A stretch of 64,000 nucleotides of DNA, taken from the NCBI RefSeq assembly GCF_000174435.1, contig NZ_ACJN02000002.1, forward strand, positions 935,490 through 999,489. Reading direction: 5' to 3'. A program made the position numbers and the translations under genes. The notes under the pieces were generated by a model. It had not been told where the DNA came from. It ran no database searches and saw only the letters and a program-made list of their open reading frames with translations. Numbering within the stretch: position 1 is the stretch's first letter; every line of letters begins with the position of its first letter. Below, one piece after another: positions 16,874 through 33,610 of the stretch. This DNA comes from Desulfonatronospira thiodismutans ASO3-1 (GTDB taxonomy: Bacteria; Desulfobacterota; Desulfovibrionia; Desulfovibrionales; Desulfonatronovibrionaceae).

Positions 16874-17143
16874 CGGTCTGCGGCCTTGCTGTCCGGATGA
16901 AAACAAGTTTTCCCCTTTTATTGCCGGCACCACCTTCCTGCTCTTCACCCTCTTTTTAGTTTCCGCCCGCAATGCCGGTTTTTTCAGGCTGGAACCGCTA
17001 AAATGCACCCTTGATGACGTGACTATGCATTTACAGTTATTGATGTGCTGATTTTTTGATTGTCACACAACCCGATCTGGATTAAACAGCCTTTCTCTTC
17101 AGGTTTTTTCCACCGCTAAACCAAAATCATGCGAGGGCTAACA

Positions 17144-18688
17144 ATGGATACCACCCATTTAGTTGACCAGATTGCCAATCTGCAGATGCTCAACCAGTTC
17201 TTTCTCTCCCTGTTTCTGCTTATTCCCATGGTCCTGGTGGCCAGGACGGCTGTTGCCGGAACACGCTATTCCCCGATACTTATCATTGTCGTTTTCGGCC
17301 TGACCATGGGTTATGTCCTGGTGGCCAGCGGGGTCAGCACCCCTGGGCTGCCGCAGTTTTCCCTCATCGATCTCATAAGCCGTACCACCATAGTGGCTCT
17401 GACGGTGTCGTTCTTCGTGGGCGGACAGGAGCTTCGAAAGATTTTGGGGGGGATCAAGCTCGAACCTGATGAAATGGTGACTCCCTCCAAGGAAGAGACT
17501 ATACTGGGTACCGGCAGAACTCAGCTTATCTTTATTGTCCGGGCCTTTTTCCTCCTGGTGGGCATAGAAGCCCTGTACAGGTTGATAGTGGGAATGGGAG
17601 CTGGAGATCTAAGCCGTTTTTACCCCATTATCGCCTATCTGGGCCTGGTGGGGGCTGTGATACTTATAGATCACAAGGCCCAGGTGACCAATAAAAGGCG
17701 CTACATCAAGATGGGTCTGGTGGAGATAGTCGCCATTCTGGGGATTCTTATCGGTTCCTATACCGTAGCCATGTGGATAGAGCCCCTGATAGCCCTGCCC
17801 CAGATATTCTTTTCCATGGTCATTGCAGCCGGTCTGGGAGCGCTCATGTATCGCTGGCAATTCGGGCCGACCATCAGGGCCCTTCTGTTTGCAGGCATTC
17901 CGGTGGTGCTGGCGGCCAACTTCATGATCGGAGGGTCGCGCATTGAAGAGGCCTTTGCCATTACCGGCATGAACGCGGTGTTGGCTTACGGGTTTTTCGG
18001 GCAGATGTTCTGGATGTTTGGAGGCATAGCCCTGCTCATGCTCTTCGGCAAGACCGACATGGCCAGGAACCTGGCCCCGGGCATGGCCGGCGGACTTTCC
18101 CACTCGGGTCTTACCGGTGCCTGTACCGCTGGAGATTTGGGCAAAACCGCGGCCTACCGCGCCCCCATCATGATCAATGTACCGTTTTTCGGGCATATAT
18201 TCGTCTTTTCCGTGCTGGCCATGAGCGCTCAAAAGGGCAGTCTCATGCTTTTGCCGTCCTTTATCATAGTTCTGGCGGGTGTTGTTCTTACGGTTCTCTC
18301 CATGAGGACCATGAAGAATGCCGGGGGTGAAGATGCAAAAGAGGTCAAGGGACTGATGCAGTTTTCTTTTGGCTGGCAGCTCTGTGCAGTTTTCGGGGGC
18401 TTTACTCTTCTCAGCTTAGCCAGCATGTCCCTGGATTTTACAGCCATGGCGGTTTCTTCGGGCATATCCCATTTCGGGCTGTTCGCAGCCACCCAGGGAG
18501 GCATGTTCGGTGAGGAGGCGTCCCTGATGATACCGTTTATCTTTTCCATGCCCTTCCTGGTGCATCCGCTGGTGTTTTTCATGTTCGGCAAGGCTATGGA
18601 AAAAGACGGGTCAATGCCCAGAAAACCGGTATATATTATAGCCCTGATAGGACTTCTAGGAATAATTTATTCCATGCTTGCGATATAG
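17144..18688 (+). CDS. Multi-pass membrane protein of unknown function
   Basis: 514 residues from the ATG at 17144, which has GAGGG 7 bases upstream (ATG 17129 is an in-frame alternative without a ribosome site). About 12-13 hydrophobic helices alternate with short loops, spread over the entire length, with no signal peptide-like cleavage site. A conserved-looking re-entrant-like segment GMAGGLSHSGLTGACTAGDL lies near residue 320 and is glycine/serine/threonine rich, as in some secondary transporters. I do not recognise the family. It lies 82 bases upstream of the ADH-kinase-regulator genes on the same strand, so it may share their regulation. It could be a transporter for an organic acid or alcohol-related compound; this is inference only. 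Confidence 0.75.
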   Translation: MDTTHLVDQIANLQMLNQFFLSLFLLIPMVLVARTAVAGTRYSPILIIVVFGLTMGYVLVASGVSTPGLPQFSLIDLISRTTIVALTVSFFVGGQELRKILGGIKLEPDEMVTPSKEETILGTGRTQLIFIVRAFFLLVGIEALYRLIVGMGAGDLSRFYPIIAYLGLVGAVILIDHKAQVTNKRRYIKMGLVEIVAILGILIGSYTVAMWIEPLIALPQIFFSMVIAAGLGALMYRWQFGPTIRALLFAGIPVVLAANFMIGGSRIEEAFAITGMNAVLAYGFFGQMFWMFGGIALLMLFGKTDMARNLAPGMAGGLSHSGLTGACTAGDLGKTAAYRAPIMINVPFFGHIFVFSVLAMSAQKGSLMLLPSFIIVLAGVVLTVLSMRTMKNAGGEDAKEVKGLMQFSFGWQLCAVFGGFTLLSLASMSLDFTAMAVSSGISHFGLFAATQGGMFGEEASLMIPFIFSMPFLVHPLVFFMFGKAMEKDGSMPRKPVYIIALIGLLGIIYSMLAI

Positions 18689-18770: not shown

Positions 18771-19922
18771 ATGTCTGAAAACAGAATCACAAAATTCGCC
18801 ATCCCGGAGATCATTTTCGGGCACGGCAGTCTGCGCTACGTGGCCCAGTGCGCCATGCGCCTGGGCGCTAAAAGGGCACTTCTGGTCACGGATGAGGGGC
18901 TCATACACTCGGGATGGGCCGGACATGTTCAGGAAATACTCAAGGACGACAATCTGGATTATATTCCTTTTGACCAGGTGGACTCCAACCCCAGGGACTA
19001 CCAGGTGCATGAGGGAGCAAAAATTTATGACCGGGAAAAGGCTGATGTCATAATATCCCTTGGCGGGGGCAGTCCCATGGATACGGCCAAGGGTATCGGC
19101 ACCATTGTGGGCAACGGCGGCAGGATAGGGGACTATGAGGGGGCCAACAAGATAATGCGGCCCCTTCCGCCCATGATATTTATACCCTCCAATGCAGGCA
19201 GCGGATCGGATATTTCCCAGTTCTGCATCATCACTGATGTGGAGCGCCAGGTAAAGATGTCCATCATCAGCCGCTCACTGGTGCCCAATGTGTCCATTAT
19301 AGACCCGGACCTGCTCATGACCAAGAGCGACGAGATGGTGGTGGCTTCGGCCGTGGACGCCCTGGCCCATGCCATCGAATCCTATGTCTCCCCTCTGGCC
19401 TCGCCATTCACCGAAAACCAGGCCATGAAGGCCATTGAGCTCATAGCCGCATACCTTCAGCCGGCCCTGGAGTCGCGAAGCTGCGAAGCCATGGAGCAGC
19501 TTTCCATAGCCAGCACTGCGGCGGGCATGTCCTTCAGCAATGCCGGCCTGGGCATAGGGCACGCCCTGGCCCATTCCTTAGGAGGAATCTTTGATACCCT
19601 GCACGGGCTGGTGCACCCCATAGTGCTGCCTTCGGTCATGCGCTACAACCTGCCTGCCTGTCCGGAAAAGATGTGCATTATCGGGCGCATCGTGCAGGGC
19701 TCCTGCACTACCTGTTCCAGCGACCAGGGGCAGGAGGGCATATCCAGGCTGGAAGAGCTCTTTGCAGGACTTGGTATTCCGGTACACCTGCGCGACATTG
19801 TCCCGGATGCATCCAGGCTGGAACAGATCTGCAAAATGGCGGTGCATGATGCCTGTATGCTGACCAATCCGCGCAAGGCCGGATGGGAAGATCTTTTTTC
19901 CATATGCCAGGAGGCCTGGTGA
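18771..19922 (+). CDS. Iron-containing (group III) alcohol dehydrogenase, regulatory-operon copy
   Basis: 383 residues. The NAD-binding loop is ISLGGGSPMDTAKGIG. Metal-ligand segments are DALAHAIESY and HALAHSLGGIFDTLHG, all complete. The family oxidises primary alcohols to aldehydes with NAD(P), or reduces aldehydes. About 380 residues is the normal length. Its stop codon overlaps the start of the histidine kinase gene (TGATG at 19920-19924), so the enzyme and the sensor are translationally coupled. It differs from the second ADH at 22874 in most loops and lacks that gene's strongly biased codon use. It may be a low-level enzyme or have a sensing role. Confidence 0.9.
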   Translation: MSENRITKFAIPEIIFGHGSLRYVAQCAMRLGAKRALLVTDEGLIHSGWAGHVQEILKDDNLDYIPFDQVDSNPRDYQVHEGAKIYDREKADVIISLGGGSPMDTAKGIGTIVGNGGRIGDYEGANKIMRPLPPMIFIPSNAGSGSDISQFCIITDVERQVKMSIISRSLVPNVSIIDPDLLMTKSDEMVVASAVDALAHAIESYVSPLASPFTENQAMKAIELIAAYLQPALESRSCEAMEQLSIASTAAGMSFSNAGLGIGHALAHSLGGIFDTLHGLVHPIVLPSVMRYNLPACPEKMCIIGRIVQGSCTTCSSDQGQEGISRLEELFAGLGIPVHLRDIVPDASRLEQICKMAVHDACMLTNPRKAGWEDLFSICQEAW

Positions 19923-21124
19923 TGCAGAAGACTCCTGATCTAAATGATCTTGTGGGCATCGAACACAGCAAACTGGGTTTTTTTCAGGAGCTGCGCCAGA
20001 AGATTGAAGAGCTCAAAGAAGCCAACAGAAAATCCGAGGAGCGCCGAAGAGAAATCGCAGCTATCCTGGACGGCATTACCGATGTCATGATGGTTCTTTC
20101 GGAAAATCTGCGCATAATTTCAGTCAACCATGTTTTTCATGAATTTTTTGACGAACCCCGGCCCGAAGGCAAATTCTGCTACCAGCTTTTTCGCGGCGAA
20201 GATTATCCCTGCCCGGAATGCCCGGCTTTCCGTTCCATGGCCACTGATTCCGTATGCCGGGATACAGCCATATTCAAGCTGGGAGGCCGCAACCTGCAGT
20301 TTGAAATGGTGGCTTCGCCCCTGAAAAATAAGGAATGGGAAGAAAACCGGGTTCTTATATTCAAGCGCGACGTGACCCTGGAAAAGGAGTACCAGGCCAA
20401 GTACTATCAGGTGGAAAAAATGGCCACCATAGGCATGCTGGCTGCTGGAGTGGCCCATGAAGTCAACAACCCCATGGCTGCCATAAACGGGTTCGCCGAA
20501 GGGCTGCGCCGGCGTATTCCGCGCATTGAAAAAAGCGTCGATCCTGAACTGGCCCAGGATTTCCGGGAATACACAGACATCATCCTCAAGGAATGCAAGC
20601 GCTGCCAGAAGATTATCCAGACTCTGCTGACCTTCAGTCGGCCCAAGCATTTCTCGTTTTCTCCCATCAATCTCAACCGGGTGGTAAACGAGACCCTGCG
20701 CCTGGTGGATCATAGCCTGCGCAAGCGTAAAGGGCTCAAGGTCAAACTGGATCTGCAGGACGGTCTGCCCCTGATCAATGCAGACGAGTCTCAGCTGAAA
20801 CAGGTAATACTGAACCTGCTGGTGAACGCCAAGGATGCCATCCAGGACAAGGGGCTGATCACCATCAAGACCTCGGCCTTTGAGCATGAAAACGAAGTCT
20901 GCCTGTGCGTGGAGGATGACGGCTGCGGCATTGATCCGGACAAGATGGATAAGCTGTTTGAGCCCTTTTTCACCACCAAGCCCGTGGGCAAAGGCATTGG
21001 TATAGGCCTGGCCTCCTGTTATAATATCGTCGAAAGTCACGGGGGAGAGATATCCGTGACCAGTGAGCCGGGCAAAGGTTCCAGGTTTACGGTATGTCTT
21101 CCTTTAAACCCCTCTATAGAGTGA
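19922..21124 (+). CDS. PAS-domain sensor histidine kinase (cytosolic)
   Basis: 400 residues from ATG 19922, with AGGAGG 7 bases upstream inside the preceding gene. A short coiled coil (about 20-45) leads into a PAS domain (about 45-160) that contains a cysteine cluster (CYQLF, then PCPECPAF and VCRD). The dimerisation/phosphotransfer helix carries H179 in GVAHEVNNP. The ATPase has N-box NLLVNAKDAI, G1 DDGCGI, F-box and G2 GKGIGIGLAS. No membrane segment, so it senses a cytosolic cue; the Cys cluster suggests redox or metal sensing but may only be structural. The next gene, two bases downstream, is its evident partner. Confidence 0.92.
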   Translation: MQKTPDLNDLVGIEHSKLGFFQELRQKIEELKEANRKSEERRREIAAILDGITDVMMVLSENLRIISVNHVFHEFFDEPRPEGKFCYQLFRGEDYPCPECPAFRSMATDSVCRDTAIFKLGGRNLQFEMVASPLKNKEWEENRVLIFKRDVTLEKEYQAKYYQVEKMATIGMLAAGVAHEVNNPMAAINGFAEGLRRRIPRIEKSVDPELAQDFREYTDIILKECKRCQKIIQTLLTFSRPKHFSFSPINLNRVVNETLRLVDHSLRKRKGLKVKLDLQDGLPLINADESQLKQVILNLLVNAKDAIQDKGLITIKTSAFEHENEVCLCVEDDGCGIDPDKMDKLFEPFFTTKPVGKGIGIGLASCYNIVESHGGEISVTSEPGKGSRFTVCLPLNPSIE

Positions 21125-22475: not shown

Positions 22476-22669
22476 CGTATGGGCTGAGCCCCTGATTCAA
22501 GGGCTGGTGCTGCCTCCGGCTTGTATTGGAATCAACGGGCGGTTCTTTCATAATATGTGACCTTGAAACTGTATCTTTTTGACCCAAAAGGCGGTTTTGG
22601 GCGTATCAAAAAATCACTAAAAATGAATGCTTTGAAATAACTGGTTTTTTTCCTGAGCCATTCCCTTTT

Positions 22670-22770: not shown

Positions 22771-22785
22771 TGGCATGCATGTTGC
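22771..22785 (+). promoter_or_regulatory. Sigma-54 (-24/-12) promoter of the second alcohol dehydrogenase
   Basis: TGGCATGCATGTTGC has the invariant GG and GC separated by exactly 10 bases and a good match to the TGGCAC-N5-TTGC consensus. Transcription would start near 22796, giving a leader of about 78 bases before ATG 22874. An NtrC-family activator gene ends 295 bases upstream. Confidence 0.8.
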
Positions 22786-22873
22786 TGACATAAAGATCAA
22801 TAGTTGCTGTTTGAAGCAGGTGCAGCGTTTTTTATTTATTCAATTTATTTAACCCAAAAGGATGGTGATTGTT

Positions 22874-24055
22874 ATGGCAGTACGTGAACAGGTTTATGGT
22901 TTTTTTATCCCCAGTGTTACCCTCATCGGCCTGGGCGCTCACAAGGAAGTACCCGCAAAGATAAAGGCCCTGGGCGGCAACAAGCCCCTGGTAGTAGCAG
23001 ACAAGGGCATCACCGCCGCAGGCATCACCGAGCAGATCACAAGCCTGCTCAAAGCCGAAGGCATGGACTGCGTCGTTTACGACGATACCATTCCCAACCC
23101 CACTGACAACAACGTCCACGACGGTGTTGAAGTCTTCAAGAAAAACAATTGCGACAGCGTCATCACCCTGGGCGGCGGAAGCTCCCATGACTGCGGAAAA
23201 GGCATCGGCCTTGTGGTCTCCAACGGCGGCAAGATCCATGATTTCGAGGGCATTGACAAGTCCGAAAAGCCCTTTCTGCCCTACGTTGCTGTAAATACCA
23301 CAGCAGGGACCGCTTCCGAGATGACCAGGTTCTGCATCATCACCGACACTTCCCGCAAGGTGAAGATGGCCATAGTCGACTGGCGCTGCACCCCCGGCGT
23401 AGCAGTTGACGACCCCCTGCTCATGATGGGCATGCCCCCGGCACTGACCGCAGCCACCGGCATGGACGCCCTGACCCACGCAGTGGAGGCCTACGTATCC
23501 CAGGCAGCAACCCCCATGACCGATGCCTGCGCCGAAAAGGCCATCAGCCTCATATTCCAGTACCTGCGCCCTGCAGTGGCCAACGGCCAGGACGTAGACG
23601 CCCGCGAAGGCATGTGCTACGCTCAATATCTGGCAGGTATGGCTTTCAACAACGCAAGCCTGGGTCACGTACATGCCATGGCTCATCAGCTGGGCGGCTT
23701 CTATGACCTGCCCCACGGCGAGTGCAATGCTATCCTGCTGCCCCATGTCGAACAGTTCAACCTCATTGCCAAGATGGACCGCTTCATCACCATGGCCGAA
23801 CTCATGGGCGAAAACATCGAAGGCCTGGGACGGCGTGAAGCCGCTGAAAAGGCCCTGGAAGGCATCAGAAAGCTGTCCAAGGACGTAGGCATTCCCTCTG
23901 GTCTCATCGAGCTGGGCAAGCGCTACGGCAAAGATGTCAAGAAAGAGGACATCAAGACCATGACCGCCAACGCTCAGAAAGACGCCTGCGGATTCACCAA
24001 TCCCCGCTGCCCCACTGACAAGGATGTGGAAGCGATTTTCGAGGCCGCTCTGTAA
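22874..24055 (+). CDS. adh: Iron-containing alcohol dehydrogenase (main, likely highly expressed)
   Basis: 393 residues from ATG 22874 (MAVREQVYGFFIPSVTLIG); in-frame ATG 22862 lies too close to AAAGGA. NAD loop TLGGGSSHDCGKGIG; metal ligands in DALTHAVEAY and HAMAHQLGGFYDLPHG. Codon use is strikingly biased towards C-ending codons compared with its neighbours, which usually marks very high expression. It stands behind a sigma-54 promoter and is closed by its own terminator, so it is monocistronic. Close relatives next to hdr-flx genes in Desulfovibrio oxidise ethanol to acetaldehyde with NAD. The hdr-flx operon starts about 190 bases downstream. Confidence 0.93.
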   Translation: MAVREQVYGFFIPSVTLIGLGAHKEVPAKIKALGGNKPLVVADKGITAAGITEQITSLLKAEGMDCVVYDDTIPNPTDNNVHDGVEVFKKNNCDSVITLGGGSSHDCGKGIGLVVSNGGKIHDFEGIDKSEKPFLPYVAVNTTAGTASEMTRFCIITDTSRKVKMAIVDWRCTPGVAVDDPLLMMGMPPALTAATGMDALTHAVEAYVSQAATPMTDACAEKAISLIFQYLRPAVANGQDVDAREGMCYAQYLAGMAFNNASLGHVHAMAHQLGGFYDLPHGECNAILLPHVEQFNLIAKMDRFITMAELMGENIEGLGRREAAEKALEGIRKLSKDVGIPSGLIELGKRYGKDVKKEDIKTMTANAQKDACGFTNPRCPTDKDVEAIFEAAL

Positions 24056-24167: not shown

Positions 24168-24244
24168 ACTTGGTCTATCATTTCACACAACCACCTGAGA
24201 GCACAATAAGGAATCAGGTTAATCATCATTTGCCGGGAGAAATC

Positions 24245-24805
24245 ATGGAAGTTGTTGATATTCACGCCTCCAGCGATAACGAATTCATCGCCAAAGTGGA
24301 GGAGGAAAGCGGACAGAATGTGCGCCTGTGTTATCAGTGCGGCAACTGTACCGCCGGGTGCCCGTACACTTTTGTGTACGATATCCCGGTGAGCCAGATC
24401 ATGCGCCTTTTGCAGGCCGGTCAGAAACAGAAGATTCTTTCTTCGAGGTCCATCTGGCTCTGCGCCACCTGCGAATCCTGCACTACCAGGTGTCCCAACG
24501 AGATCGACGTGGCCACCATCATGGACGTGCTGCGCCATATGGCCAGGCGGGAAGGATATGTATCCGAGCAGAAAGTGAAGAAATTCTGGGACAGCTTTCT
24601 GGATTCGGTGGAAAAACACGGCCGGGTCTTTGAGATGGGGCTTTTGACCAGATACATAACCAGGACCGGCCGGGTCTGGACAGACGTGGACCTGGCCCCC
24701 AAGATGCTTCCCAAGGGCAAGCTGTCCATAAGACCCCATAAGATAGAGGGCCGGGACAAGGTTGCCCAGATATTCAAACGCTTCAGGGAGGAGGCGCATA
24801 AATGA
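24245..24805 (+). CDS. hdrC: Heterodisulfide-reductase-like subunit C (two 4Fe-4S clusters)
   Basis: 186 residues from ATG 24245 with GGGAG upstream. Two classic 4Fe-4S motifs are visible: C29, C32, C35, C39 in CYQCGNCTAGCP and C73, C76, C79, C83 in CATCESCTTRCP. HdrC carries electrons between the flavin subunit HdrA and the disulfide-reducing subunit HdrB. No membrane helix is present, so this is the soluble HdrABC type. The stop overlaps the hdrB start by four bases (ATGA), giving tight coupling. Confidence 0.94.
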   Translation: MEVVDIHASSDNEFIAKVEEESGQNVRLCYQCGNCTAGCPYTFVYDIPVSQIMRLLQAGQKQKILSSRSIWLCATCESCTTRCPNEIDVATIMDVLRHMARREGYVSEQKVKKFWDSFLDSVEKHGRVFEMGLLTRYITRTGRVWTDVDLAPKMLPKGKLSIRPHKIEGRDKVAQIFKRFREEAHK

Positions 24806-25740
24806 GAAATTTCGCCTACTACCCGGGGTGCTCCGGTCTGGGCACGTCCATGGAGTACGACAAATCCACCAGGGCCGTATGTAAAGCCCTGGGGATAAAT
24901 CTGATGGATATTAATGACTGGAGCTGTTGTGGCTCCACCCCGGCTCATACAGTGGATCATCTGCTTTCATCGGCTTTGTCCGGGCGCAACCTGGCCCTGG
25001 CAGAGGAGATGGAGGCCGAGGCCATGATCACTCCGTGTCCCAGCTGTCTTTCCAATCTTAAAGGCACTGTGCATCGTTTGAGTGACCGCGGGTTTCGCCA
25101 TAAAGTGAACAACCTTCTGGAAAAGCCTGTACAGCGCACCATGCCCGTAAAATCCGTCCTGCAGATCCTGGACGAGGAAGTGGGCAGCCGGGAGCTGGCG
25201 GAAAGACTGCCGGAAAAACCCCTGCGCGGTCTCAAAGTGGCTACTTATTACGGCTGTATCATGAACCGGCCTCCGGAGGTGATGCAGTTCGACGATCACG
25301 AGCATCCCATGGCCATGGACCGGCTCATGCAGGCCCTGGGGGCTGAAGTCCTGCCTTTCCCCCTCAAGGTGGAATGCTGCGGGGCCTCTTTCGGTATACC
25401 TCGCAAGGACGTAGTGGCCACCCTGTCGGGCAGACTCCTGGATACGGCTCAGGCATTGGGAGCACATGCCATGGTCACTGCCTGCCCCCTGTGTCAGATG
25501 AACCTGGACCTGCGTCAGGGCCAGGCTGCATCCGTAATGGGCAAAGAATTCAACATGCCCGTTTTTTACTACACCCAGCTGATAGGGGTGGCCCTGGGCC
25601 TGCCCCAGAAAGAACTGGGGCTTTCCAAACTTTGCGTCAAGCCAAGTATCGCTTTTGACGCCATGCGCAGCAACAGGGAACAAGAGCCCGTATCCAAGAG
25701 CGCTGGCAAGAAAAAGCCTGAGACCAAGGAGAACTCATGA
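24802..25740 (+). CDS. hdrB: Heterodisulfide-reductase-like subunit B (two CCG domains)
   Basis: 312 residues. Two CCG (cysteine-rich) domains bind the unusual non-cubane clusters of HdrB: the first with YYPGCSG, SCCGSTPAH and CPSCLSNL, the second with TYYGCIM, ECCGASFG and CPLCQMNL. In methanogens this subunit splits CoM-S-S-CoB; in sulfate reducers the disulfide is thought to be another small protein or thiol (DsrC has been proposed). A lysine-rich tail (GKKKPETKENS) extends the C-terminus. It overlaps both neighbours by four bases. Confidence 0.94.
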   Translation: MRNFAYYPGCSGLGTSMEYDKSTRAVCKALGINLMDINDWSCCGSTPAHTVDHLLSSALSGRNLALAEEMEAEAMITPCPSCLSNLKGTVHRLSDRGFRHKVNNLLEKPVQRTMPVKSVLQILDEEVGSRELAERLPEKPLRGLKVATYYGCIMNRPPEVMQFDDHEHPMAMDRLMQALGAEVLPFPLKVECCGASFGIPRKDVVATLSGRLLDTAQALGAHAMVTACPLCQMNLDLRQGQAASVMGKEFNMPVFYYTQLIGVALGLPQKELGLSKLCVKPSIAFDAMRSNREQEPVSKSAGKKKPETKENS

Positions 25741-27695
25741 AAATAGGAGTGTTTGTCTGCCACTGCGGCAGCAATATCGCCGGAACAGTTGACACGGCCA
25801 GAGTCGCCAAAGCCGCCATGGAGTTTCCGGAAGTCACCTTTGCCTCTGATACCATGTATGCCTGTTCCGAACCCGGTCAGGACGCTATCGTTGAGGCCAT
25901 CAGGGAAAAAGGACTGGACGGCGTGGTAGTGGCCTCGTGCACCCCGAGGATGCACGAGCCCACCTTCAGGCGCACAGTGGAGCGGGCAGGACTTAACCGT
26001 TACATGTTTGAAATGGCCAATATCCGCGAGCACGTCTCCTGGATCGGCAAGGACATGGAGGCCAATACCAACAAGGCCATCGAGTTGACCCGCATCGCTG
26101 CGGAAAAGCTCAGGCGCAACCAGCCCCTGTATCCCAAGCAGTTTGAAATCAACAAGCGGGTGCTTGTTGTGGGAGGCGGAGTGGCTGGCATCCAGGCTGC
26201 ACTGGACTGTGCCGACGGGGACCGGGAAGTGGTCCTGGTGGAGAAAAGATCCACCATAGGCGGCAAAATGGCCAAACTGGACAAGACCTTTCCCACTGTG
26301 GACTGCAGCAGCTGCATCCTTGGCCCCAAGATGGTGGACGTGGCTCAACATCCCAAGATCACCCTGTACGCCATGTCCGAGGTGGAAGAAGTAGGCGGCT
26401 ATGTGGGCAATTTTGAAGTCAAGATCAAAAAAAAGCCGGCTTACGTCAACTGGGATCTGTGTACCGGCTGCGGACTGTGCATGGAAAAGTGCCCGGCCAA
26501 GAAGTCCACGGACTATTTCAATGAAAACCTGGGCAAGACCACGGCCATAAACATCCCCTTTCCCCAGGCCATCCCCAAAAAAGCGGTCATCGACCCGGAT
26601 TTCTGCCGCCAGTTCACCAAGGGCAAATGCAGCGTCTGCGCCAAGCTCTGCCCCACCAAGGCCATTGATTTTGAGCAGCAGGAAGAGTTTGTCACGGAGC
26701 AGGTGGGAGCTATCGTAGCAGCCACCGGCTATGATGTATTCGACATCAGCAAGTACGGGGAATACGGCGGCGGAAGGCTGCCGGATGTAATCACCAGCCT
26801 GCAGTATGAGCGTCTCCTGTCGGCCTCCGGCCCCACGGGCGGGCACGTCAAACGTCCATCTGATGGCAGGGAACCCAAGACCGTGGTTTTTGTCCAGTGT
26901 GTCGGCTCCAGGGATAAAAGCGTGGGCCGGCCGTACTGTTCGGGTTTCTGCTGTATGTATACGGCCAAGCAGGCCATTTTGACCAAGGATCATATCCCGG
27001 ATTCCGACTCTTATGTGTTTTATATGGATATCCGTGCCCCGGGCAAGATGTATGACGAGTTCACCAGGCGGGCCATGGAGGAATACGGTACTCAGTACGT
27101 GCGGGGCCGGGTTTCCATGATCTACCCCAAGGGGGACAAATACGTGGTCCGCGGAGCAGATACCCTGCTTGGCACCCAGGTGGAGCTGGAGGCGGATCTG
27201 GTGGTTCTGGCGGCCGGGGCCGAGGCGGCAGTTGGCGCGCCCCAGCTGGCTGAGAAGCTGCGTATTTCTTATGACACCTACGGCTTTTACATGGAAAGTC
27301 ATCCCAAGCTGCGCCCGGTGGAGACCAATACCGCCGGGGTCTACCTGGCCGGAGCCTGCCAGGGACCCAAGGATATTCCGGCCTCTGTAGCCCAGGGCAG
27401 TGCTGCTGCCTCCAAGGTGCTGGCCATGTTCGCCAAGGACAAGTTAGAAAACGACCCGGTGATTTCCATGGTGGATATCAACCGCTGCATAGGCTGCGGC
27501 AAGTGCATACAGGTATGTCCCTTTGGTGCGGTCAAGGAAGTGGATTTCAGGGGCCAGCCCAAGGCCGAGGTTATTGAGACCGTTTGCCAGGGTTGCGGAA
27601 TATGCACAGCCACCTGTCCCCAGGGAGCCATTCAGCTGTCCCATTTTACAGACAACCAGATTCTAGCCGAGGTGAACGCCTTATGTCAGCCTTAA
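25737..27695 (+). CDS. hdrA: Heterodisulfide-reductase-like subunit A (FAD, multiple 4Fe-4S)
   Basis: 652 residues. The N-terminal segment FVCHCGSNIAGTVD is the HdrA cluster-binding region. The FAD site VLVVGGGVAGIQAALD is near residue 142, and CSSC (in DCSSCILGPKM) is conserved. Two ferredoxin-type regions follow: CTGCGLCMEKCP with CSVCAKLCP in an insert at about 240-310, and CIGCGKCIQVCP plus CQGCGICTATCP at the C-terminus. HdrA is the electron-bifurcating flavoprotein of the complex. At about 650 residues it is the usual single-unit form, not fused to other subunits. Confidence 0.94.
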   Translation: MKIGVFVCHCGSNIAGTVDTARVAKAAMEFPEVTFASDTMYACSEPGQDAIVEAIREKGLDGVVVASCTPRMHEPTFRRTVERAGLNRYMFEMANIREHVSWIGKDMEANTNKAIELTRIAAEKLRRNQPLYPKQFEINKRVLVVGGGVAGIQAALDCADGDREVVLVEKRSTIGGKMAKLDKTFPTVDCSSCILGPKMVDVAQHPKITLYAMSEVEEVGGYVGNFEVKIKKKPAYVNWDLCTGCGLCMEKCPAKKSTDYFNENLGKTTAINIPFPQAIPKKAVIDPDFCRQFTKGKCSVCAKLCPTKAIDFEQQEEFVTEQVGAIVAATGYDVFDISKYGEYGGGRLPDVITSLQYERLLSASGPTGGHVKRPSDGREPKTVVFVQCVGSRDKSVGRPYCSGFCCMYTAKQAILTKDHIPDSDSYVFYMDIRAPGKMYDEFTRRAMEEYGTQYVRGRVSMIYPKGDKYVVRGADTLLGTQVELEADLVVLAAGAEAAVGAPQLAEKLRISYDTYGFYMESHPKLRPVETNTAGVYLAGACQGPKDIPASVAQGSAAASKVLAMFAKDKLENDPVISMVDINRCIGCGKCIQVCPFGAVKEVDFRGQPKAEVIETVCQGCGICTATCPQGAIQLSHFTDNQILAEVNALCQP

Positions 27696-28141
27696 ACCAG
27701 AATGAATTACGCATCATAGGCTTTCTGTGCAACTGGTGCTCTTACGGCGGGGCTGATACCGCCGGGGTGGGGCGCTTCAGCCAGCCCACGGATCTGCGCA
27801 TTATCCGGGTGCCCTGCTCAGGGCGTATCAATCCGCTGTTTATAGCCAGAGCCCTTTTAAACGGGGCCGACGGGGTGCTGGTATCGGGATGTCATCCCCG
27901 GGACTGCCATTATGCCGAGGGCAATTTCTACGCCCGGCGCAGGCTGGAAATGTTTCAGCGTCTGCTGTCCACCATGGGCATCGAGCCCAGGCGTTTTGAA
28001 TATACCTGGGTGTCGGCATCCGAGGGCCAGCGCTGGCAGACAGTGGTGACCAAGTTTACAGAGCAGATACACGAACTGGGACCCGCCCCGCGCTTCGGGG
28101 CTTTCCAGGACGAGAACCCGGCCACCGCGCCACAGTCTTAA
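27683..28141 (+). CDS. flxD: FlxD / MvhD-like [2Fe-2S] electron-transfer subunit
   Basis: 152 residues from ATG 27683, which has GAGGTGA 8 bases upstream and overlaps the end of hdrA by 13 bases; a longer frame from 27584 is not needed. MvhD family markers are GFLCNWCSYGGADTAG, RVPCSGRINP and VSGCHPRDCHYAEGN, with the expected cysteines. The subunit links HdrA to the partner dehydrogenase. The stop codon TAA is also the first part of a TAAGGA target site, because a family-A element has inserted directly behind it. Confidence 0.93.
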   Translation: MSALNQNELRIIGFLCNWCSYGGADTAGVGRFSQPTDLRIIRVPCSGRINPLFIARALLNGADGVLVSGCHPRDCHYAEGNFYARRRLEMFQRLLSTMGIEPRRFEYTWVSASEGQRWQTVVTKFTEQIHELGPAPRFGAFQDENPATAPQS

Positions 28142-28144
28142 GGA

Positions 28145-28330
28145 GTTTTCATCCTTAAACGGTTATTTTTCCCTTTGGCGGCGTCAATCTGCACAATTAT
28201 TCGTCAACGTATTAAGATACGCCTCCTCATAATTTGTTTGATTTCCTTGCCAAAAGAAAAAATTCCTCGTTTAAGGAAAGAAAACCAATAGATTTCAATA
28301 TCCGGAAAGAAAGACTTTCCGGATAGAAAC
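28145..28330 (+). mobile_element. MITE-like structured repeat, family A, copy 4, inside the hdr-flx operon (186 bp)
   Basis: It is flanked by the 6-bp direct repeat TAAGGA (28139-28144 and 28331-28336). The target was the junction of the flxD stop codon and the flxC ribosome site (TAAGGAG), so the duplication leaves a stop for flxD and AAGGAG for flxC. Stem I has a double compensatory change (CCTTAAACG with CGTTTAAGG), and the right hairpin shows another (TATCCGG with CCGGATA). The element therefore lies in the operon transcript and keeps its fold. Confidence 0.9.
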
Positions 28331-28343
28331 TAAGGAGCACAAA

Positions 28344-29300
28344 GTGACTGTTATCACGGAGCTCAAAGAGCAGATAAAAACAGCCCTGCCGGACTTAGAC
28401 ATGGTCATCGGCTGGGAAAGAGGGTTTGACCCCCTGCACGCCACTCCGCTTTTCATGCGCAAGGCCCAGGACGTGGAGCGACTGGAACTGGGCCCTCTGG
28501 CAGTGCACAATACCGCCACCTACCTGACCGGATTTAAAGGCAAAAAAGTCGGGCTGGTGGTCAAGGGCTGCGACAGCCGGGCGGTCATCCAGCTATTGCA
28601 GGAAGGTCTAATAGACAGGGAAAACGTGGTCATATTCGGCTTTCCCTGCCAGGGAGTGGTGGACATGGTCAAGGTGCAGAAGCACCTGGGCAACACCGGC
28701 CTGGTAAGGGAAGTGCAGATCCAGGACTCGTCCCTGAAAGTAAAGGTCAACGGTGAAGAAAGAGACCTGGCCTTAAAGGATGTTCTGGCGGACAAGTGCG
28801 CCAGGTGCCGCTACCCCAACGCCATGCTCTATGACCATTTTGCAGGGCAGCCCATTGAACCTCATGCCTCGGAAGATAAATACCAGGATGTTGAGGAACT
28901 GGAGTCCCTGTCCCTGGAGGAGCGTTTCCAACACTGGGAGCGGGAGATGCATCGCTGCATCCGCTGTTATGCCTGCCGCAATGCCTGTCCCATGTGCGTA
29001 TGCCGGGATCATTGCGTGGCCCAGAGCAGACAGCCCCAGTGGCTGACCCAGGAAGATTCCGTGCGGGAGAAGTGGATGTTTCAGGTGATCCATGCCATGC
29101 ACCTGGCCGGACGCTGCGTTGAGTGCGGCGAATGCCAGCGGGCCTGTCCCATGGATATCCCCATTATGGCCCTGAAGCGCAAGCTCAACAGGGAGGCCAG
29201 GGAGCTTTTCAACTACGAAGCCGGTGTTGATCCCAACGAGACTGCGCCGCTTCTCTCTTTCAAAGTTGAGGAAGAGAATATCAACGAGAGAGGTTGGTAA
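28344..29300 (+). CDS. flxC: FlxC-like iron-sulfur subunit
   Basis: 318 residues, starting with GTG 28344 behind AAGGAG (28332-28337) restored by the repeat's target duplication. The N-terminal half resembles FrhB/coenzyme F420 hydrogenase beta-type proteins (KVGLVVKGCDSRAVIQLLQE, FGFPCQGVVD). The C-terminal half has two 4Fe-4S motifs, CIRCYACRNACP followed by further Cys (MCVCRDHC), and CVECGECQRACP. In FlxABCD complexes this subunit carries electrons between FlxA and HdrA. Its stop overlaps the flxB start (TAATG). Confidence 0.88.
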   Translation: MTVITELKEQIKTALPDLDMVIGWERGFDPLHATPLFMRKAQDVERLELGPLAVHNTATYLTGFKGKKVGLVVKGCDSRAVIQLLQEGLIDRENVVIFGFPCQGVVDMVKVQKHLGNTGLVREVQIQDSSLKVKVNGEERDLALKDVLADKCARCRYPNAMLYDHFAGQPIEPHASEDKYQDVEELESLSLEERFQHWEREMHRCIRCYACRNACPMCVCRDHCVAQSRQPQWLTQEDSVREKWMFQVIHAMHLAGRCVECGECQRACPMDIPIMALKRKLNREARELFNYEAGVDPNETAPLLSFKVEEENINERGW

Positions 29301-30370
29301 TGGCAGAGGCCAAATACATATCCCAGGACAAGCTTGGCAAGTGGCTGGACGAGTTGTCCCAGCAGATGCAGGTACTTGCCCCGGTACAGGAAGGTGAGGC
29401 TGTGGTTTTCAGACCCTATCAGACCGGAACTGAAATCAGGCTGGAGGGCCAGCCCACACTGCCTCCCAAGGAAGCGGTTTTTCCAGCCAGCGAGGAGCTT
29501 TTTGCCTATACATACCGCAAAAATCCAGAGGACCCGGCCCAGACCGACGTGGAAATAGGTCCCCGGGCACAACCTCAAAAGACCCTGGTTTTCGGGGCCA
29601 GGCCCTGCGGGTCCAGAGGGTTTGTCATCTTTGATCCGGTGTATACCCAGGGCTACTACATGGATCCCTATTACCGGGTCAGGCGTGAATCCACCATATT
29701 TGCTTCGGTGGCCTGTGTAAGTCACGAGAATTCCTGCTTCTGCCACAGTGTGGGTTCCGGACCCGGAGACACTGCAGGTTCAGACATCCTGCTCACCCCG
29801 GTGGACAATGGATACGTAGCTGAGGCGGTTACGGACAAAGGCGGGGAAATGCTCGGCAGTTCCCTTCTGGAGGCGGCAGGAGACAAAGCGGGCAAGGCCC
29901 GGGAGCTCCGGGACAAGGCCCTCAAGGACATGGGCGAGCCCCGGGATTTTACTCCGGCCCGGGAAAAACTGCTGGCCATATTTGATGACCTGGACTTCTG
30001 GGAAGACGTCTCGGCCAAGTGCATCAGCTGCGGGGCCTGTACCTACCTCTGCCCCACCTGCTACTGCTTCAACATCACTGATGAAAGTGCCGGAATGCAG
30101 GGCAGCCGCATAAGGTCCTGGGACAACTGCATGTCTTTTCAGTTCACCCTGGAGGCCAGCGGCCACAATCCCCGGCCCACCAAGGCGCATCGACTGCGCA
30201 ACAGGGTGGGGCACAAGTTCAGCTATTATCCCGAACTGCATCAGGGTATGATCGCCTGCTGCGGGTGCGGGCGCTGCATCAAGCACTGCCCCGTGAGCGT
30301 GGACATCCGTGAAATTGTCATCAGGGCCATGGAGCATCAGACCGAGACTGGCGAGGAGGCCGGAAAATGA
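29300..30370 (+). CDS. flxB: FlxB-like iron-sulfur subunit
   Basis: 356 residues from ATG 29300, with GAGAGG upstream inside flxC. The front half resembles 4Fe-4S dicluster proteins of the hydrogenase/sulfite-reductase beta type (GARPCGSRGFVIFD, VACVSHENSCFC). Two ferredoxin motifs follow: CISCGACTYLCPTCYC and CCGCGRCIKHCP, the latter near the C-terminus. It is the probable conduit to the NADH-linked FlxA. The stop overlaps flxA by four bases (ATGA). Confidence 0.88.
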   Translation: MAEAKYISQDKLGKWLDELSQQMQVLAPVQEGEAVVFRPYQTGTEIRLEGQPTLPPKEAVFPASEELFAYTYRKNPEDPAQTDVEIGPRAQPQKTLVFGARPCGSRGFVIFDPVYTQGYYMDPYYRVRRESTIFASVACVSHENSCFCHSVGSGPGDTAGSDILLTPVDNGYVAEAVTDKGGEMLGSSLLEAAGDKAGKARELRDKALKDMGEPRDFTPAREKLLAIFDDLDFWEDVSAKCISCGACTYLCPTCYCFNITDESAGMQGSRIRSWDNCMSFQFTLEASGHNPRPTKAHRLRNRVGHKFSYYPELHQGMIACCGCGRCIKHCPVSVDIREIVIRAMEHQTETGEEAGK

Positions 30371-31221
30371 TGGACATTCAGCAGTATCTGACAGAAAATA
30401 ACCCCTACCTGCCGGAACTGGGCACCATTGTGGAGACCATCCAGGAGACGCACAATATAATGACTTTCCGGGTGGTCCTGGACGGAGACAGCCGCATGCA
30501 GGATTTCAGCTTTGAACCCGGCCAGGTGGGACAGCTATCAGTTTTCGGCACTGGAGAGGCCACCTTTGTCATCAACTCACCGCCCACGCGCAAGGAGTAT
30601 CTGCAGTTCAGCGTCATGCGCGCCGGAGAAGTGACCACCAAACTGCACAGCCTGACCAAAGGAGACCGCATAGGGGTGCGTGCCCCCCTGGGCAACTACT
30701 TTCCCTATGAGTCCATGAAGGGCAAGGATATCTTGATAGTGGGCGGAGGTATAGGCATGGCCCCTTTGCGCACCCTGCTTCTGTTCATGCTGGACAACCG
30801 CGACGACTACGGCCGGATTCAGCTGCTTTACGGGGCGCGCAGTCCTCAGGACATGGCTTTTAGTTACGAGCTTCCGGACTGGCTGGAGAGAAAGGACCTG
30901 GAAACGGTGCTGACCATCGACAACGAGGCCGAGGGCTGGGAACACCGGGTGGGACTTATTCCCAACGTACTTCTGGAAATGGCTCCCACGCCACAAAATG
31001 CCATAGCTGTGACCTGCGGTCCGCCCATAATGATCAAGTTTACCCTGCAGGCCCTGAAAAAGCTGGGCTTCGAGGACAACCAGATAATCACCACCCTGGA
31101 AAAGCGCATGAAATGCGGCATAGGACTTTGCGGCAGATGCAATATCGGCACCAGTTATGTATGCGTGGACGGACCCGTGTTCAGCTACGAACAGCTTCGG
31201 GCCCTGCCCAATGAACTTTAG
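30367..31221 (+). CDS. flxA: FlxA-like NAD(P)H:acceptor flavoprotein (FNR family with 2Fe-2S)
   Basis: 284 residues. An FAD-binding barrel lies at about 15-105, and the NAD(P) domain has LIVGGGIGMAPLRTLL and TCGPPIM. A C-terminal cysteine cluster (MKCGIGLCGRCNIG...YVC) binds a 2Fe-2S centre as in dihydroorotate dehydrogenase electron-transfer subunits and hydrogenase gamma subunits. In D. vulgaris the homologous FlxABCD-HdrABC complex is described as an NADH dehydrogenase linked to ethanol metabolism. It is the last gene of the tightly overlapping hdrCBA-flxDCBA set. Confidence 0.92.
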   Translation: MMDIQQYLTENNPYLPELGTIVETIQETHNIMTFRVVLDGDSRMQDFSFEPGQVGQLSVFGTGEATFVINSPPTRKEYLQFSVMRAGEVTTKLHSLTKGDRIGVRAPLGNYFPYESMKGKDILIVGGGIGMAPLRTLLLFMLDNRDDYGRIQLLYGARSPQDMAFSYELPDWLERKDLETVLTIDNEAEGWEHRVGLIPNVLLEMAPTPQNAIAVTCGPPIMIKFTLQALKKLGFEDNQIITTLEKRMKCGIGLCGRCNIGTSYVCVDGPVFSYEQLRALPNEL

Positions 31222-31252: not shown

Positions 31253-31723
31253 ATGGCCGGTTTTTTCAAGGCGGCGGAGATCGTCGAAGCAGCCGTAAAT
31301 ATTGAACAACAGGGGCAGGCCTTTTATACCAGAGCCGCAGAAGCGGCCAAAAACCCGGATGCCAAGGATTTTTTTCTGTATTTTGCCAAGGAGGAATCCA
31401 GGCACGAGGAGATTTTTGCAAAGTTCAAGGAGCGCCTGGGCAAGACAGAACTGCCGGCCTGGAGCACCAGCGATGAATACAGCCAGTACCTGTCTGCACT
31501 CATTGATTCTCACTCAATATTTTCCCCGGATCTTCAGAAAAGGCTGACTGAAGCCGGTGATGAGAACGAGGCCATAAGACTGGCCATGGGGTTTGAAAAG
31601 GATACTATCCTTTTCTTCATGGAGATGCGCGAGCTTGTACCGGAATCGGAGAAAAAGTTCGTTCAGCAGTGCATAGATGAGGAGCGTTCCCATCTGCGTC
31701 AGCTGTCCAGCATGTTGACGTAG
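31253..31723 (+). CDS. Ferritin-like / rubrerythrin-family protein without rubredoxin domain
   Basis: 156 residues in a four-helix arrangement with the di-iron ligand pattern: E in EQQGQAFY, ExxH in EESRHEEI, E in GFEKDTILFF and ExxH in DEERSHLRQL. No CxxC rubredoxin-like tail is present, unlike true rubrerythrin. Such proteins reduce peroxide or handle iron in anaerobes; the electron donor is unknown. AAGGAG precedes the ATG, and the gene sits 31 bases after flxA, so co-transcription with the redox operon is likely. It may protect the oxygen-sensitive enzymes encoded around it. Confidence 0.85.
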   Translation: MAGFFKAAEIVEAAVNIEQQGQAFYTRAAEAAKNPDAKDFFLYFAKEESRHEEIFAKFKERLGKTELPAWSTSDEYSQYLSALIDSHSIFSPDLQKRLTEAGDENEAIRLAMGFEKDTILFFMEMRELVPESEKKFVQQCIDEERSHLRQLSSMLT

Positions 31724-31870
31724 AATATTTTCAGGCGTTTACCCGGACTGCAAAGGCATGAGCATGACCATGCCTGCACTGCTTTGCCCTGCAGCCGGAA
31801 TACTCAAGGTATGATACAGGCATAAACAGGCAACTGCATAAAGACTCAACCCTTTGAAGGAGGTATTTTC

Positions 31871-33610
31871 ATGGACAAGATCTTGAGAATCGATGTTGGG
31901 GCCCCGGGCGGTCCCAAGGCTACAGAAGAGCCCATAGGCGACTATGCCGGAATGGGCGGACGCGGCATGACCACTTCAGTGGTCTACAAAGAGGTTCCCC
32001 CGGATTGCCACCCCCTGGGACCGGAGAACAAACTGGTTATTGCTCCGGGACTCATGAGCGGATCGGCTGCTTCTTCATCCGGACGCATGTCCGTTGGCTG
32101 CAAAAGCCCCCTTACCGGTACCATCAAGGAGTCCAACGCCGGCGGAACAGGGTCCCAGGCCCTGGCCAGACTGGGCTATGCCGCGGTTATCCTGGAAGGT
32201 GAGCGCCAGGGAGAGGACATGTACAAAGTGGTCATCAACGACCAGGGCGTCAGCCTGGAAAAGGCCAACGATCTGAAAATGCTGGCCAACTACGACCTCA
32301 TCGACAAGCTAAAACCGGTGCACGGGGAAAAGGTTTCGGTCATCTCTATCGGTACTGCCGGGGAGATGCGCATGTCCAACTCTTCCATAGCCGTCACCGA
32401 CCCGGAATTCAGGCCCACCAGGCATTGCGGCCGCGGCGGTGTAGGAGCTGTCATGGGTTCCAAGGGTATCAAGTGCATTGTTGTGGATGCTTCTGGTGCC
32501 AAGACCCGCAAGCCTGTCCGCCCGGACGAGTTCAAGGAGTCCAACAAGAAGTTTGTTGAAGGCCTCAAGGCCCACGCAGTCACCGGCCAGGGACTGCCCA
32601 CCTACGGCACCAACGTGCTCACCAATATCTTAAACGAGGCCGGAGGCTACCCCACGTACAACTTCAGGGAAGGCCGTTATAAACACGCCCAGAACCTGTC
32701 CGGGGAGCTGCAGGCCGAAAACATGAAAAACCGCGAAGGCGGTCAGCCCACACACGGCTGCCACCGGGGCTGCATCATCCAGTGCTCCGGTATATACACA
32801 GACAAGGACGGCAATTACATGTCCAAGCAGCCGGAATACGAGACTGTCTGGTCCCACGGCGGCAACTGCGGCATCGACGACCTGGACGCCATTGCCAGGC
32901 TGGACTACCTGGATGATCATTACGGACTGGATACCATAGAGATGGGCGTGACCATAGGCGTGGCCATGGAGGCAGGCGTAATCGAATTCGGTGATGCTGA
33001 AGGGGCTATAAACCTGGTGCACGAAGTGGGCAAAGGCACACCCCTGGGGCGTATCCTGGGCGCCGGGGCCGCCACAACCGCCCGCTGCTACGGCATGGAG
33101 CATGCACCTGTGGTCAAGGGCCAGGCTCTTCCTGCCTATGACCCCCGTTCGGTCAAGGGTATCGGGGTGACCTACGCCACCACCACCCAGGGAGCTGACC
33201 ACACGGCCGGGTATGCAGTCACCGCCAACATCCTCAAGGTGGGCGGAGACGTGGATCCCCTGCAGACCGGAGGCCAGGCCGAGCTGTCCCGCAACCTGCA
33301 GATAGCCACTGCAGCCCTGGATTCCACCGGCTTCTGCCTGTTCGTGGCCTTTGCCATCCTGGATCAGGGCGAGACATTTGAGGCCATGGTTCAGACCATC
33401 AATCATATGTACGGACTGGATATGACCGGTGATGACGTAGTGGCCCTGGGCCAGAAGATCCTCAAGATGGAGAAGGAATTCAACGAGAAGGCCGGTTTCG
33501 GTCCTGCACACGACCGTCTGCCCAGGTACTTCTCCCGCGAACCCCTAGCTCCGCACAACGTTGTTTTTGACGTACCGGACAAAGAACTGGACAGTGTATA
33601 TAACTTCTAA
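31871..33610 (+). CDS. aor: Aldehyde:ferredoxin oxidoreductase (tungsten-pterin family)
   Basis: 579 residues. The N-terminal pterin-binding domain has IGDYAGMGGRGMTT, APGLMSGSAASSSGRMSVG and SNAGGTGSQALARLGYAAV. The 4Fe-4S ligands are CHRGCIIQC in the middle plus a C-terminal Cys in LDSTGFCLF. The second pterin motif includes KGIGVTYATTTQGADHT. Family enzymes oxidise aldehydes to acids and reduce ferredoxin, using a tungsten bis-pyranopterin. AAGGAGG lies before the ATG. It follows the ferritin-like gene and is closed by a terminator. Placement after the alcohol dehydrogenase and hdr-flx genes fits acetaldehyde oxidation. Confidence 0.95.
   Translation: MDKILRIDVGAPGGPKATEEPIGDYAGMGGRGMTTSVVYKEVPPDCHPLGPENKLVIAPGLMSGSAASSSGRMSVGCKSPLTGTIKESNAGGTGSQALARLGYAAVILEGERQGEDMYKVVINDQGVSLEKANDLKMLANYDLIDKLKPVHGEKVSVISIGTAGEMRMSNSSIAVTDPEFRPTRHCGRGGVGAVMGSKGIKCIVVDASGAKTRKPVRPDEFKESNKKFVEGLKAHAVTGQGLPTYGTNVLTNILNEAGGYPTYNFREGRYKHAQNLSGELQAENMKNREGGQPTHGCHRGCIIQCSGIYTDKDGNYMSKQPEYETVWSHGGNCGIDDLDAIARLDYLDDHYGLDTIEMGVTIGVAMEAGVIEFGDAEGAINLVHEVGKGTPLGRILGAGAATTARCYGMEHAPVVKGQALPAYDPRSVKGIGVTYATTTQGADHTAGYAVTANILKVGGDVDPLQTGGQAELSRNLQIATAALDSTGFCLFVAFAILDQGETFEAMVQTINHMYGLDMTGDDVVALGQKILKMEKEFNEKAGFGPAHDRLPRYFSREPLAPHNVVFDVPDKELDSVYNF

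Follow-up and report, generated by a model that had tools for sequence, protein, structure and literature searches.

A candidate sensory alcohol dehydrogenase of the ErcA kind paired with a histidine kinase in Desulfonatronospira thiodismutans

Why would a cell encode an alcohol dehydrogenase (ADH) in overlap with a sensor kinase? This question is raised by a 64,000-nucleotide (nt) stretch of Desulfonatronospira thiodismutans ASO3-1 (contig NZ_ACJN02000002.1, positions 935,490 to 999,489; hereafter "the window"), in which an Fe-type ADH gene (ADH1) runs into the gene of a PAS histidine kinase (HK), followed by an NtrC-type response regulator (RR), a second ADH gene (ADH2), and hdr-flx-like genes. 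A preliminary description of this DNA had proposed that enzyme, sensor, and regulator are produced together, that ADH2 is the probable target, and that ADH1 either sets a metabolite level or redox state sensed by the kinase or contacts the kinase physically. Here, we find that the three genes form a conserved unit, that ADH1 shares ancestry with ErcA-type ADHs and keeps its active-site residues, that a short N-terminal segment of the kinase accompanies this type of ADH, and that a sigma-54 promoter accompanies the regulator. With good though not full confidence, we propose that ADH1 is a sensory ADH docked on the N-terminus of HK, and that HK drives RR and, through it, expression of ADH2 and the hdr-flx genes.

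The ADH1 stop codon (TGA, 19920–19922) and the HK start codon (ATG, 19922–19924) share bases in the overlap TGATG, and the AGGAGG ribosome site of the kinase, which ends 7 nt 5' of the ATG, lies inside ADH1; both features had been described previously and were confirmed on the open reading frames (ORFs) and the sequence. The cytosolic location attributed to the kinase is likewise borne out, as HK is without a membrane-like stretch (maximum Kyte-Doolittle-19 of 1.3, versus 2.7 for the membrane protein encoded just upstream). To evaluate conservation of the triplet, a check that had been set beforehand, we searched for ADH1 across 199 genomes of the order and among named genomes, all counts from these searches being among the matches listed. 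Within the order, ADH1 orthologs (49–100% identity, separate from paralogs at ≤42%) occupied 90 places in 84 of the 199 genomes, with HK directly behind at 90 out of 90. When 87 orthologous loci were fetched, ADH1 and HK were adjacent in every one, with RR next in 86, and the sole locus without RR stops at a contig end. An in-frame HK start overlapped the ADH1 stop or lay within 4 nt of it in all 87 loci, which indicates that this close junction is not due to chance. Outside the order, ADH1, HK, and RR followed by a second ADH were found in 11 of 13 loci (L189–L201); the other two are L193, with a divergent second ADH and no regulator seen, and L201, whose contig stretch shows only the one ADH. 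The triplet is therefore conserved rather than confined to this genome, and enzyme, sensor, and regulator constitute a real unit.

Several loci display variations on this arrangement. A second kind of triplet, with an ADH1 49–54% identical, occurs in L049, L050, and L056–L062, and the one in L049 adjoins genes for an aldehyde:ferredoxin oxidoreductase and a ferredoxin-like protein, which may be its target. Nine genomes of a single genus (L123–L131) have a second HK–RR pair, without ADH1 but with the segment kept, behind the ADH2-hdr-flx cluster; ADH2 was seen in seven of these nine stretches, the other two being cut, and the full triplet is found elsewhere in the same genomes. In L135 (7327–7972), remnants of ADH1 (residues 6–127) and of the regulator (355–447) abut before ADH2, the middle of the triplet being gone, while in L104 the kinase frame is broken by a stop after ~160 residues, which may be real or a sequencing error.

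Next, we examined the N-terminus of the kinase, of which residues 7–36 (LNDLVGIEHSKLGFFQELRQKIEELKEANR) are not covered by any family in the Pfam scan. When a profile built on these residues (A2) was run on the 199 genomes, 99 places matched: 90 sit 15–56 nt behind the 90 listed ADH1 genes, and the other nine are extra kinase copies (HK2) in one genus that holds ADH1 elsewhere. Nothing beyond ADH1 partners and HK2 copies was matched in these genomes at E ≤ 0.001 (weakest match 1.1e-10), and the genomes with ADH1 and those with the segment are identical sets. At the same threshold, the window HK, whose row belongs to the profile, was the only match in its genome. Partners of ErcA proper carry a sister segment (GLGExSxRKSYYPEL), the profile of which matched 22 places in 395 genomes of the phylum. 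Of these, 21 lie immediately behind an ErcA gene over the cut-off, accounting for all 21 such genes, and the remaining one follows an ErcA with an internal deletion. By construction, profiles A2 and A3 recover their own rows, and the 15 rows of the ErcA profile are among its matches; the searches are informative because there were no other matches. The triplet type (DLVGIEHSKLGFFQEL) and the ErcA type could be aligned to each other with hhalign (probability 89%, E 2.3e-6). Locus L233 (1011–2634) holds an ErcA-type ADH lacking its central part directly before an intact segment-bearing partner kinase.

The segment also extended to more distant relatives. In the named-genome scan, all 56 loci at ≥49% identity had a segment-bearing partner (at least 15 of these loci being on contigs already sampled), as did 21 of 24 distant loci, none of which came from earlier stretches; the three others are L306, at a contig end, L303, where a further ADH-like frame comes next, and L304, for which no partner was seen. 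The distant loci include members of the Bacteroidota, Synergistota, Spirochaetota, and Pseudomonadota, and one on a contig assigned to a methanogen, this being a metagenome bin in which contamination is possible. Behind the segment we found histidine kinases but also SpoIIE (L174), GGDEF-EAL (L180, L187, and L313), and HD_5 domains (L302, L312, and L317). In a motif-free alignment of 39 partners of ErcA-type ADHs, the two segment blocks reached 60% and 53% mean pairwise identity, compared to 9–28% for other 15-column blocks in the first ~200 residues. A pattern-located comparison of 30 out of 41 ErcA-type partners gave 60% for the segment versus 20% for the part that follows, but this procedure itself favours identity, and the motif-free alignment was the one relied on. 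For the 86 triplet kinases, identity was 66% in the segment, 51% in the PAS domain, and 56% in the HATPase domain. A PDB search with the kinase N-terminus yielded just four matches, none better than E 0.54, and among the open-licence literature no title or abstract start described a wider ADH-partner family or such a segment. To judge from sequence, an N-terminal segment of ~30 residues common to ADH partners across output domains and several phyla is the new element here. Two actinobacterial loci, L217 (2971–6133, Tsukamurella) and L221 (3911–6552, Mycolicibacterium), have an Fe-ADH directly before a histidine kinase that begins with a LTGLRSGKSSYYPQYR-like stretch, this similarity being judged by eye; L217 lies near an N,N-dimethyl-4-nitrosoaniline (NDMA)-dependent methanol dehydrogenase (mdo) gene.

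ADH1 itself belongs to the Fe-type ADHs (PF00465), both by fold family and by its Fe ligands, an Asp and three His, and among NCBIfam models its best family by a clear margin is ErcA (NF041833, 409.1 bits, the next model reaching 290). ADH2, by comparison, scored best on YiaY/L-threonine dehydrogenase (498 bits, over 417 for ErcA). Ten further ADHs followed the same division: six directly before a kinase and a Rhodococcus one beside a lone regulator scored best on ErcA, and three without a segment-bearing partner behind scored best on YiaY. In a maximum-likelihood tree, a branch with 100/100 support parted 60 partner ADHs and two without partner from 28 others without partner, and the partner labels required three changes versus 25 in shuffles, with 0 of 500 shuffles as low. 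ADH1 falls on the ErcA side, apart from the catabolic Fe-ADHs, with ADH1 and ErcA as separate subgroups within, so that shared ancestry between ADH1 and the ErcA-type ADHs is the placement that these sequences give. Sampling for this tree was steered by similarity to ADH1, meaning that it covers the ADH1 neighbourhood and not all Fe-ADHs; the labelling pattern missed eight partner rows and miscalled two, all of which were set by hand, L306 was left unlabelled, and eight near-duplicates and later five long-branch rows were dropped. The two partnerless ADHs on the sensor side are that of L304 and that of L219, whose Fe ligands are changed. The latter locus (L219, 2974–5319) is on a Rhodococcus plasmid and has its ErcA-like ADH beside a lone response regulator, with no kinase seen between them.

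The Fe ligands of ADH1, assigned as D196, H200, H264, and H278 after solved Fe-ADHs, are intact, as is the NAD-binding GGGS. In the first tree, all 62 partner ADHs have these four residues and GGGS, and 61 have His268; Gln150 was likewise present in all 62, a position at which 28 of 33 other ADHs have Arg. The simplest reading of this kept active site is a sensor that would still bind, and possibly turn over, its ligand. This reading agrees with the impaired induction reported for a His281 mutation in Pseudomonas YiaY (PMC12997753).

We then asked what the regulator might control. RR displays the features of an NtrC-type regulator, i.e., a receiver, an AAA+ domain with a GxFTGA loop, a Fis-type helix-turn-helix, and a −24/−12 promoter at its proposed target. 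That promoter, located before ADH2, is the only match to the sigma-54 pattern in the window (0.12 expected) and agrees with the consensus at 11 of 12 positions. Upstream of ADH2, 48 of 71 places reached at least 10 of 12 positions, versus 1.7% of shuffles that keep letter content only, compared to 5 of 88 for ADH1 and 0 of 26 for hdrA, taken as a control; among the 71, six places came from triplet-less genomes, and 0 of these 6 reached 10. ADH2 or hdr/flx genes were present inside the fetched stretch for 66 of the 87 loci, with none seen there in the remainder, and in G077 ADH2 lies 54 kb from the triplet. In Desulfovibrio (Nitratidesulfovibrio) vulgaris, DVU2396-DVU2395-DVU2394 is presumed to be the same triplet from locus numbers, families, and order, with DVU2395 as the presumed kinase, and ADH2 is presumed from gene order to be the counterpart of DVU2405. 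ADH1 and a segment-bearing kinase were found in two other Nitratidesulfovibrio species (L247 and L248). The regulator DVU2394 carries GSFTGA as its enhancer-binding protein loop (PMC4641369), as does the window RR, and the DVU2405-2397 operon is one of several targets mapped for DVU2394 (PMC3333781; PMC4641369). Since the sigma-54 promoter precedes ADH2 in most triplet genomes and DVU2394 maps to the counterpart operon, RR probably targets ADH2, in line with what had been suggested for this locus. Possible regulator boxes upstream of the promoter are similar in the window and four relatives (in an upstream alignment of seven sequences, two of which, L090 and L096, were on the wrong strand and are disregarded), but their pattern was not above chance in the window, and they represent a weak lead. 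According to Rajeev et al., the DVU2394 site is a direct repeat found, among related species, only in D. vulgaris Miyazaki besides Hildenborough (PMC3333781).

Table 1 Features of the ADH1-HK-RR locus and its surroundings, in window coordinates.
Feature	Position	Strand	Evidence
ADH1, proposed sensory Fe-type alcohol dehydrogenase, ErcA-like	18771..19922	+	PF00465/PF25137; best NCBIfam NF041833 ErcA
Kinase ribosome site AGGAGG, within ADH1	19909..19914	+	read from sequence
Cytosolic PAS histidine kinase (HK)	19922..21124	+	PAS_4, HisKA, HATPase_c (Pfam)
HK N-terminal segment, proposed ADH-docking segment	19940..20029	+	profile A2 match, E 1.1e-17
PAS Cys cluster C86-x10-C97-x2-C100 of HK	20177..20221	+	kinase alignment
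NtrC-type sigma-54 response regulator (RR), GSFTGA loop	21126..22475	+	receiver-sigma54-HTH_8 (Pfam)
Possible regulator boxes GTATC...TGAC / GTATCAA (weak lead)	22570..22618	+	upstream alignment
Sigma-54 promoter TGGCATGCATGTTGCT before ADH2	22771..22786	+	consensus pattern scan
ADH2, catabolic Fe-ADH, proposed target	22862..24055	+	Pfam; NCBIfam best YiaY/L-threonine dehydrogenase
hdrCBA-flxDCBA-like genes, same direction as ADH2	24170..31221	+	ORFs; Pfam for three Hdr-like proteins only; flx names presumed from gene order
Rubrerythrin-like protein and aldehyde:ferredoxin oxidoreductase-like gene	31253..33610	+	ORFs only; labels presumed by eye

Around these features, the upstream membrane protein (17129–18688, 519 residues), which had no Pfam match at E ≤ 0.001, stands before the triplet only in loci from the closest relatives. 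Of the named relatives in the genome scan, a Desulfonatronospira is nearest, with 90% identity over ADH1.

Taken together, these results are consistent with the following scenario. ADH1 would be made together with the kinase and, with its Fe and NAD site intact, would bind and possibly turn over an alcohol or aldehyde. It would contact the N-terminal helix of the kinase (residues ~7–36), such that what happens at its active site determines how active the kinase is; phosphorylated by the kinase, the NtrC-type regulator would activate the sigma-54 promoter that serves ADH2 and the hdr-flx genes downstream, and the cell's ethanol-using machinery would be switched on. The segment goes with the ADH and not with the output domain, marking ADH-adjacent proteins whatever that domain may be, as would be expected if it contacted the ADH, and for this reason we tentatively interpret it as an ADH-docking segment and favour physical contact over a diffusible signal. 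Of the two options offered in the preliminary description, contact is thus the one favoured by the segment, and the metabolite or redox option is disfavoured.

Several observations weigh against this scenario. ADH1 scores 141 bits under the curated ErcA cut-off of 550, which places it outside formal membership of that family, and with single profiles neither segment subtype, triplet or ErcA, found the other significantly (best E 0.27 and 4). AlphaFold2 predictions place the segment in a long helix at the kinase N-terminus (7–51), but a run on a read-through of ADH1 and the kinase N-terminus (L285/L294) showed no docking, with segment block means of 42–72, no better than the 49–77 obtained for the kinase alone; because this construct gave the segment no confident place, contact is something that we infer. 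The second HK–RR pair found beside hdr-flx in nine genomes does without an adjacent ADH1, with the full triplet elsewhere and the segment kept. Finally, in published work, DVU2394 has other mapped targets and PhoB also targets an alcohol dehydrogenase (PMC3333781), and the authors of an evolution study take the group of lines with DVU2395 mutations as general laboratory or stress adaptation (PMC7439460).

The alternative that survives best, which we nevertheless consider unlikely, is that ADH1 acts as a normal enzyme and that the PAS domain or its Cys cluster senses the aldehyde or NADH so produced, without any contact. The intact active sites of all 62 partner ADHs and the coupled expression of ADH1 and the kinase would fit such a model, as would the Cys cluster, which had been pointed out earlier and is real: all 86 kinases longer than 380 residues (window included) have C86, C97, and C100, and 59 of the 86 have a fourth, C112. 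However, a profile of the Cys segment (CYxxF...PCxxCP) matched four other places in this genome (E ≤ 0.0011), so that the cluster marks a PAS subtype and not the ADH1-HK-RR system, and in a pattern search the kinases beside ErcA proper, as well as L204 and L208, gave no such cluster, even though the segment is kept there. On these grounds, the cluster was rejected as the coupling element. Product sensing is further disfavoured by the good conservation of the segment and poor conservation of the part after it, and by the restriction of the segment, at E ≤ 0.001 across the 199 and 395 genomes, to ADH partners or HK2 copies.

Slightly less probable again is the possibility that the segment is a dimerisation or signal helix that binds no ADH and was inherited along with the gene pair. 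Its predicted position within a long helix and the absence of docking in the read-through run would both be accommodated, and operons can pass on whole. Yet the segment persists through the exchange of output domains, and it is the sole match in a genome with 94 kinase-like candidates at first look. That ADH1 is an ordinary catabolic ADH merely sharing a promoter with the kinase, for which its intact catalytic residues could be cited, is very improbable and was rejected on the 90 out of 90 linkage among the matches listed, which holds even where ADH2 is far away (G077), and it also sits poorly with the very low protein level in D. vulgaris (PMC10920352) and with the mutation of DVU2394 and DVU2396 in the same evolved groups (PMC7439460).

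How does the sensory ADH–kinase pair proposed here compare to known systems? The closest is ErcA-ErcS of P. aeruginosa, or YiaY-PP_2683 (YiaZ) of P. putida, in which, as here, an Fe-ADH is co-cistronic with a histidine kinase and its gene is directly upstream; these pairs control alcohol-oxidation genes encoded elsewhere (PMC12997753; PMC7427536). In Pseudomonas, inactivating the ADH or its kinase represses alcohol genes, AlphaFold3 predicts contact of the N-terminal domains, and a 2026 review describes how ErcA/YiaY acts on the kinase as an open question (PMC12997753). In those pairs, pyrroloquinoline quinone (PQQ) dehydrogenases are controlled through a hybrid kinase and a LuxR-type regulator (AgmR/ErbR), whereas the window encodes a soluble, single-PAS, non-hybrid kinase and an NtrC-type sigma-54 regulator with ADH2-hdr-flx as likely target. 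This likeness rests on literature descriptions and the ErcA NCBIfam model, and Pseudomonas ErcA was not found among the 60 plasmid-collection records listed of 2057. A second alcohol-related two-component system, MnoSR of Mycobacterium smegmatis, adjoins the putative 1,3-propanediol dehydrogenase gene MSMEG_6239, which is described as a regulated target (PMC11303327), unlike the sensor role proposed for ADH1; the likeness is drawn from the published description. Of the two actinobacterial kinases with a similar N-terminal stretch described above, that of Tsukamurella has GAF and HisKA_3 domains. Overall, we regard ADH1-HK-RR as a diverged, sigma-54-coupled variant of the ErcA-ErcS kind, given that its working would resemble that of ErcA-ErcS yet ADH1 falls under the ErcA cut-off and kinase and regulator differ.

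Published data on D. vulgaris are compatible with one functional unit and constitute no test of a sensor role. In evolved lines, DVU2394 and DVU2396 were mutated in the same two groups, and DVU2395 in one evolved strain and again in another group (PMC7439460), while high-scoring genes in syntrophic lines include DVU2394 and DVU2395 (PMC8319347). DVU2396 is scarce, with 2 spectra versus 111 for DVU2405 (PMC10920352). The available parts of the D. vulgaris literature cover the regulator and its target only and give DVU2396 no sensor role.

Beyond this locus, we lean, with less assurance than for the triplet itself, towards a view of regulatory ADHs as a class of receptors that is widespread among bacteria and perhaps extends to some archaea, in which one clade that keeps its active site would dock via an N-terminal segment into exchangeable signalling proteins, including histidine kinases, SpoIIE phosphatases, cyclic di-GMP enzymes, and HD_5 proteins. 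If so, cells would read alcohols using an enzyme as a sensor subunit, and the segment would let such sensors be predicted from sequence, narrowing down the residues worth mutating and flagging ADH-fed signalling proteins across many phyla. The sulfate-reducer triplet has a single regulator, a kinase that is not hybrid, a target operon that has been mapped, and a strain that serves as a genetic model, and would be a simpler place to solve the ErcA/YiaY-kinase question. DVU2396 would thereby gain a candidate function, and the ADH-Hdr-Flx system of sulfate reducers an input.

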